Source: Gemmatimonadaceae bacterium
GTDB lineage: Bacteria > Gemmatimonadota > Gemmatimonadetes > Gemmatimonadales > Gemmatimonadaceae
DNA length: 35,729 nt
Direction of reading: 5' to 3'
Assembly (NCBI GenBank): GCA_025453875.1
Contig: JALOPN010000033.1
Coordinates: 1 to 35,729, forward strand
Shown here: one piece after another, positions 7,581 to 9,724 of the stretch
Position numbering within the stretch: position 1 is the first letter of the stretch
Layout: the number at the start of each line of letters is the position of its first letter
The notes under the pieces: model-generated
The model's input: the letters and a program-made list of their open reading frames with translations, nothing else
Databases searched by the model: none
Told to the model about the DNA's origin: nothing
Program-made: the position numbers and the translations under genes

Positions 7581-8357
7581 TCAGTCGGTGAGCAGACTGA
7601 GCGCTTCGGCGCGCGCAAAGTCGGCTTCTTCGGTGATCTTGAGCGCGCGTTCCGATCCGCGCACTACGACCACCTCCGCGCCGATGCGTTCGCAGAGGCC
7701 GGCATCATCCGTCGCGCCCACGCGATCGTTGCGCGCAGCGAGATGCGCGCGCTCGAGCATCTCGCGTGGAAAGGCCTGCGGCGTCTGCGCACGCCAGAGA
7801 TTGCTGCGATCGACCGTGTCGGTGATGCGACCGTCGGCATCCACGCGCTTGAGCGTGTCCACGACGGGCAGCGCCGCCACCGCACCGTGGCCGCGTCGTG
7901 CTTCATCGATCACGCGCGCGATCGTCTCGTCGGTGACGAGCGGACGCGCGGCGTCGTGCACGACCACAACGCGGACCTCCTCGGGCATGTCCTCGAGTCC
8001 ATTGTACACCGACTCGTGCCGTTCGCGGCCACCGACCGACACGAGCAGTCGCTCGACATCACACTGGAACAACCAGGGCGGCGGATCCGCCGCGTACGCC
8101 TTGGGCAGCACCACGACCACGGTGGCCACATCGGGACGCGCCATGAAGGCTTGCACGCTGTGCAGCAATGCGGGCTTGCCGGTCACCCAGCGGAACTGCT
8201 TGAGCTCCTCGCCGCCCACACGCGAGCCGCTGCCGCCGGCGACGATGACGACGCCGACATCGCGCGTCACGTCGGACGTGCGCGCGGGCGCCCCATCGTC
8301 GCGCGCACGCACGATGGGGGGCGGAACGATGCGGCGCGGAGGCGTGTCACTCGTCAT
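7581..8357 (-). CDS. ispD: 2-C-methyl-D-erythritol 4-phosphate cytidylyltransferase
   Basis: Third step of the non-mevalonate (MEP) isoprenoid pathway: MEP plus CTP gives CDP-ME. The CTP-binding loop reads VAGGSGSRVGGEELKQF, a variant of the usual AAGxGxRMG...PKQ. HDAARPLVT and the terminal LKITEEADFARAE are also diagnostic. I choose ATG 8357, which gives 258 residues and an 11-base overlap with the end of radA. The longer ORF-track start lies inside radA, and the first about 30 residues are already a nonconserved Pro/Arg-rich tail. ispF is not adjacent. Confidence 0.93.
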   Translation of the reverse strand: MTSDTPPRRIVPPPIVRARDDGAPARTSDVTRDVGVVIVAGGSGSRVGGEELKQFRWVTGKPALLHSVQAFMARPDVATVVVVLPKAYAADPPPWLFQCDVERLLVSVGGRERHESVYNGLEDMPEEVRVVVVHDAARPLVTDETIARVIDEARRGHGAVAALPVVDTLKRVDADGRITDTVDRSNLWRAQTPQAFPREMLERAHLAARNDRVGATDDAGLCERIGAEVVVVRGSERALKITEEADFARAEALSLLTD

Positions 8358-9309
8358 CGGTTGACTCATCGAAGGAACGGTCATCACTTGCGGCACCGGC
8401 GAACGCCGGTCGCGCGCGTCGCGGTTCGGCACCTGCTGCGCCAGCGCGGCGTGGTCCGATGGTGCGCATCAGCACATCACCCAGGGTGCGCACGCCGTGC
8501 ACCGTCATGCCGGCTGGCACACGATGCGGCACCGCGCGCTCGGCGAGATACGCCTCGGTCATGCCGAGCTTCGCAGCTTCGGCGAGTCGCCGCTCGACCT
8601 GCGTCACGGCGCGCACTTCACCACCGAGCCCGAGCTCACCGAGGAACACCGCGCGCGCGGGGAGCGCGCGATCGGTGACGCTGCTCGCGATCGCCATCGC
8701 CACGGCCAGATCGACGGCCGGTTCCTGCACGCGCATGCCGCCCACGAGATTGCAGAACACATCGAGGTCGGCGCACGAGAAGCCCCCACGCTTGTCGAGC
8801 ACGGCGAGCAGCAGCGCGAGGCGGCGCCCGTCGATGCCGTTGGCAACGCGTTGCGGTGTGCCGAAGCCCGCGCGCGCCGCAAGTGCCTGCACCTCGACGA
8901 GCACCGGACGCGTCCCTTCCATGAGCGCACACACGGCGCTGCCGCTCGCGACGTTGTCGCGCTCCCCCATGAACAACGCGGACGGATTCGCGACGGGCTC
9001 GAGGCCACTGGGTGCCATGCGAAACACCCCGATCTCGTCGACGCTGCCGAAGCGATTCTTCGTGGCCCGCAGGATGCGGTGATCGAGCGATCCCTCGCCC
9101 TCGAAGTACAACACGGTGTCGACGATGTGCTCCAGCGTCTTCGGGCCGGCGATGCCGCCGCCCTTCGTCACGTGGCCGATCACGAACACCGTCACGTTGC
9201 GTTCCTTCGCGTACCGCATGAGTCGCGCGGCGCATTCGCGCACCTGCCCCACGTTGCCCGGCGCGCCTTCGAGCAACTCCGTGTGCACCGTCTGGATGGA
9301 GTCGATCAC
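8347..9309 (-). pseudogene. radA: RadA/Sms C-terminal fragment (frame broken)
   Basis: Larger part of a disrupted DNA repair and recombination ATPase gene (RadA is a RecA-related branch-migration helicase). This frame starts at the Walker B region (VIDSIQ) and includes GHVTKGGGIAGPKTLEH, the RadA signature KNRFG, the NPSALF region and the Lon-protease-like C-terminal domain with LLAVLDKRGG and FLGELGLGGEVR. The only in-frame initiator near its beginning is GTG 9309, overlapping the upstream stop as GTGA. About 33 residues expected between LYVSGEES and VIDSIQ are missing, so neither half is a complete ATPase. It may be a true pseudogene or an assembly/sequencing deletion. Confidence 0.85.
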
Positions 9310-9716
9310 GAGGAATTCACCTGCAGCGGTGACTCCTCACCCGACACATACAGCGTGCGATGGCCCGCGTTGTCGAGGCGTGCCGCCACCTGCAGCAGCA
9401 AGGTGCTCTTGCCGATTCCGGGCTCACCGCCCACGAGCACCATCGCGCCTGGCACGATGCCGCCGCCGAGCACAAAGTCGAACTCGTCGAGCCCGGTGCG
9501 CCAGCGGTGCGATTCACTGCCGGTGACCTCGCCGAGTCGCACCGCGGGGACCGCGAGGGCGCCCTCCGTCGCACGCGCGCGCTTCGACGCCGATGCCGGC
9601 GCGACGAGCTCCTCGGCCAACGTATTCCACGCACCGCACGCGCTGCAGCGCCCCGACCACTTCGAGTGGTCAGCGCCGCAGTCGGTGCAGCGATACACGG
9701 AACGCGCGCGCGCCAT
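9306..9716 (-). pseudogene. radA: RadA/Sms N-terminal fragment (zinc finger and Walker A)
   Basis: N-terminal part of the broken radA. It carries the C4 zinc finger (YRCTDCGADHSKWSGRC, then SACGAWN), the GLDEFDFVLGGG strand and Walker A GEPGIGKSTLL. It runs to LYVSGEESPLQV and then stops within three codons at TGA (9306-9308). The ORF track counts an extra GTG codon; ATG 9716 is preferred and lies 8 bases after the dnaB stop. The junction where homology jumps frame is at about 9309-9325, around CTGCAGGTGAATTC on the minus strand. Confidence 0.87.
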
Positions 9717-9724
9717 CACGCGGC

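Follow-up and report, generated by a model that had tools for sequence, protein, structure and literature searches.

A frame-breaking gap in radA of a Gemmatimonadaceae draft genome is most likely an assembly deletion

The radA gene of the draft assembly GCA_025453875.1 is read as two frames separated by a loss of 121 bp, and this break is very probably an artefact of assembly. Among relatives the loss is confined to this one assembly, both halves of the gene are constrained, and similar losses recur in other genes of the same draft; we infer that the assembly is their cause. Loss of RadA in the organism is not supported. Since the break most likely does not exist in the organism, the product is best described as an ordinary RadA.

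RadA is a hexameric DnaB-type helicase composed of a zinc finger, a RecA-like core with the KNRFG motif and a Lon-like domain (PMC5512693). The analysed window is one whole contig, JALOPN010000033.1 (35,729 nt). In it radA occupies two minus-strand ORFs, ORF1 and ORF2, with dnaB upstream and ispD downstream, as in congeners. The TGA stop of ORF1 (9308-9306) is overlapped by a GTG (9309-9307), so that the two frames overlap as GTGA, an arrangement described in the earlier note and recovered here. ORF1 matches positions 1-137 of the RadA model TIGR00416 (E 3.5e-45, 152 bits) and ORF2 matches positions 175-454 (E 7e-110, 371 bits). The ORFs thus cover consecutive parts of the profile and leave 37 positions unmatched. 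ORF1 carries the C4 zinc finger CTDCGADHSKWSGRCSAC, matched by Pfam Zn_ribbon_LapB, and a KaiC-type ATPase match. Together with its open frame, ORF2 supplies Walker B, KNRFG and the Lon-like domain, and all the elements of RadA/Sms, a DnaB-type branch-migration helicase, follow in the usual order. The draft copy differs from RadA/Sms in that its frame is broken and 41-42 codons are absent from the region between Walker A and Walker B. No single continuous frame scores above the curated cut-off of TIGR00416, there being no match of more than 403 bits in the draft genome, and a search with this profile revealed no second radA in the assembly.

Table 1. Positions of the radA features in the window and of the other sharp losses in the draft
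Feature	Position	Strand	Remarks
ORF1, N-terminal radA frame	9306-9719	-	137 aa, ending in LYVSGEESPLQVNSS and stop
ORF1 content	9306..9719	-	C4 zinc finger, linker, Walker A, GEESPLQV, then NSS and TGA
ORF2, C-terminal radA frame	8347-9309	-	320 aa; Walker B, KNRFG, Lon-like domain
Walker A, GEPGIGKST	9402..9428	-	read from sequence and translation of ORF1
Junction	9313..9317	-	AATTC replacing 42 codons of congeners, net -121 bp; alignment to five relatives
Walker B, LVIDS (LVIDSIQ)	ORF2 and its open frame	-	frame open from before 9312
KNRFG motif	9046..9060	-	read from ORF2 sequence
Seven non-radA losses in the draft (G000)	C240:3362, C4:21651, C280:11031, C280:13511, C280:30677, C345:325, C345:3488		39-128 bp, against congener G002

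The size of the missing stretch was determined by alignment with RadA of close relatives. Four congeners (G001-G004) have 42 codons from LQV to LVIDSIQ and a fifth relative has 41; in a wider set of some 100 relatives the spacing ranges from 35 to 43. The five bases AATTC stand where congeners carry 42 codons; relative to both G002 and G004 the net loss is 121 bp, a number not divisible by three. At the junction a Phe codon is implied directly before LVID, and relatives have none at that place. The earlier note had called the lesion more than a point frameshift, and the alignment it proposed bears this out, with a gap larger than claimed. The interval in E. coli-like RadA is about 35 codons; the figure of about 33 missing codons given earlier fits such a protein and is an underestimate for this lineage. 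Walker A of the congener RadA aligns with that of pneumococcal RadA 5LKM, and judging from alignment with the solved protein, the lost part would correspond to about two helices and one strand of the RecA-type core. As the missing stretch lies within this core, between Walker A and Walker B, neither chain as written would give a complete one.

The relatives found in the public collection are Gemmatimonas and Gemmatimonadaceae drafts. TIGR00416 matches above the cut-off as one stretch in 151 of the 179 family genomes, and 21 of the remaining ones were re-inspected. Where checked, partial matches stop no more than 2 bases from a contig end; one genome has runs of N, and the rest of the 21 are without a true radA match. 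Another ungapped internal break in radA was not found among the 179 genomes. A deletion shared with relatives was rejected: even when as many as 3 mismatches are allowed, the junction pattern is absent from radA of all other family genomes, and its sole other match is in a genome with an intact radA on a different contig. Within the genus dN/dS is 0.10-0.22 for the N-terminal part and 0.05-0.13 for the C-terminal part (omega 0.05-0.22 overall), as in intact copies. Such normal constraint in both halves means that nothing has decayed and rules out an old pseudogene. With the deletion unshared and both halves undecayed, the event is either very recent or not biological.

A seeming second split radA, in three pieces, was found in genome G185 (L138; G185:C117:4800-7400) and rejected, as its gaps are runs of N. 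One run inside radA matches the position of the present gap, between Walker A and Walker B, a weak coincidence given that the contig has several N runs. Separately, G025 (98% complete), G190 (96%) and G050 (96%), nearly complete drafts from the same order, are without a true radA match, which could reflect real absence or missing contigs.

The draft consists of 410 contigs (2.96 Mb, 64% completeness). Draft contigs that match the radA-bearing contig of a congener were compared with it, and sharp one-sided gaps of at least 30 bp were counted. Over 118.7 kb aligned with G002, eight sharp losses were detected, all in the draft and none in G002. They measure 39, 47, 79, 89, 94, 121, 128 and 128 bp, and the 40-bp flanks on each side are 72-100% identical. 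Five of the eight were also seen against the second congener, G004, and the losses therefore belong to the draft and not to G002. Three control comparisons of relatives with each other (101.6, 61.3 and 54.4 kb) yielded six indels of at least 30 bp in total. Five of these are 32-37 bp long, mostly with weak flanks; the sixth, of 116 bp, falls, by our reading of the coordinates, immediately beyond the conserved portion of radA, in the length-variable C-terminal tail. Similar losses thus affect other conserved loci of the draft, eight against zero, with nearly none in the controls.

Seven of the eight losses, including six of the seven outside radA, lie inside conserved genes whose congener copies belong to curated families: biotin carboxylase (accC type), rodA, dusB, trpD, an HU/IHF-type gene (whose congener match scores under the curated cut-off of IHF models), sdhC and radA. 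The HU/IHF-type loss removes a GFGTF motif and the sdhC loss a hydrophobic stretch. The frame is lost in five of the seven genes and kept in two (39 and 78 bp), about what is expected if the reading frame is irrelevant, as it is with artefacts. Weak matches on C12 leave room for a further biotin-carboxylase-like sequence in the draft, and for this reason the argument is not rested on essentiality of the biotin carboxylase gene.

Short gaps closed without N during assembly of the draft would explain all eight losses, and it is implausible that a living cell carries such losses at an equal rate throughout its genome. The organism would then have an ordinary continuous radA, of which the draft fused two pieces after dropping about 121 bp between them, with no Ns left. 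Closure of short scaffold gaps by false overlap, or low coverage, may have been the route. The losses resemble dropped or falsely closed gaps in drafts in being clean, up to 128 bp long, indifferent to frame, of one direction and spread over unrelated conserved genes; nothing specific on this class of artefact was found in the literature. The fault recurs about once every 15 kb in those parts of the draft that allowed comparison, a rate resting on nine contigs. As a counterpoint, elsewhere in the window the match to relatives runs through about 35 genes with no further break, and the fault is therefore not frequent in the radA contig itself. A GC or hairpin feature shared by all eight lost stretches was looked for and not found. 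In G002, folding of the radA stretch is stronger than that of about 96% of random windows and folding of the HU/IHF-type stretch stronger than that of about 93%; a hairpin or high-GC cause was rejected, as none of the other six is exceptional. A chimeric join of two organisms was also rejected, both flanks being collinear with G002 and similarly diverged.

Of the two causes offered in the earlier note, the evidence thus favours assembly deletion, backed by seven other clean short losses in the draft, over loss of the helicase. A real recent deletion that inactivated radA, leaving the two frames as a young pseudogene, is improbable. It would fit the clean edges, the collinear flanks and the normal dN/dS values, which would not yet have shifted after a very recent loss, and it would be survivable, bacterial radA having been described as dispensable (PMC9129000); if true, it would add a minor example of a dispensable recombination helicase being lost. 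However, no relative shares it, and seven similar losses in rodA, biotin carboxylase and other genes would hardly be tolerated as recent events.

Reinitiation at GTGA, also suggested earlier, is possible in principle. A working two-chain RadA, in which the internal deletion is real and translational coupling starts ORF2 at the GTG, could draw on the overlap itself, on an AGGTGA 7 nt upstream of the GTG and on the constraint seen in both halves. However, AGGTGA and GTG are codons that relatives also carry (CAG GTG AAG and the ordinary Walker B valine), both chains lack the portion of the core that lies between Walker A and Walker B, and the same pattern of loss is found elsewhere in the draft, all of which makes this arrangement very unlikely. 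Least credible of all is a mixed population in which the assembler chose the path of a deletion variant present in some cells: a fragmented, incomplete draft is compatible with a strain mixture, but eight independent minority variants would have had to win, all of them losses and none a gain.

With the assembly as the preferred cause, gene losses should not be called from GCA_025453875.1; extrapolation from 8 losses per about 119 kb to its 2.96 Mb suggests that dropped stretches could number in the order of 200.

Elsewhere in the window, a strongly conserved segment lies on the minus strand at 1203-1586, upstream of the carbamoyl-phosphate synthase small subunit gene and in another frame; judged by eye, its product appears SecG-like.
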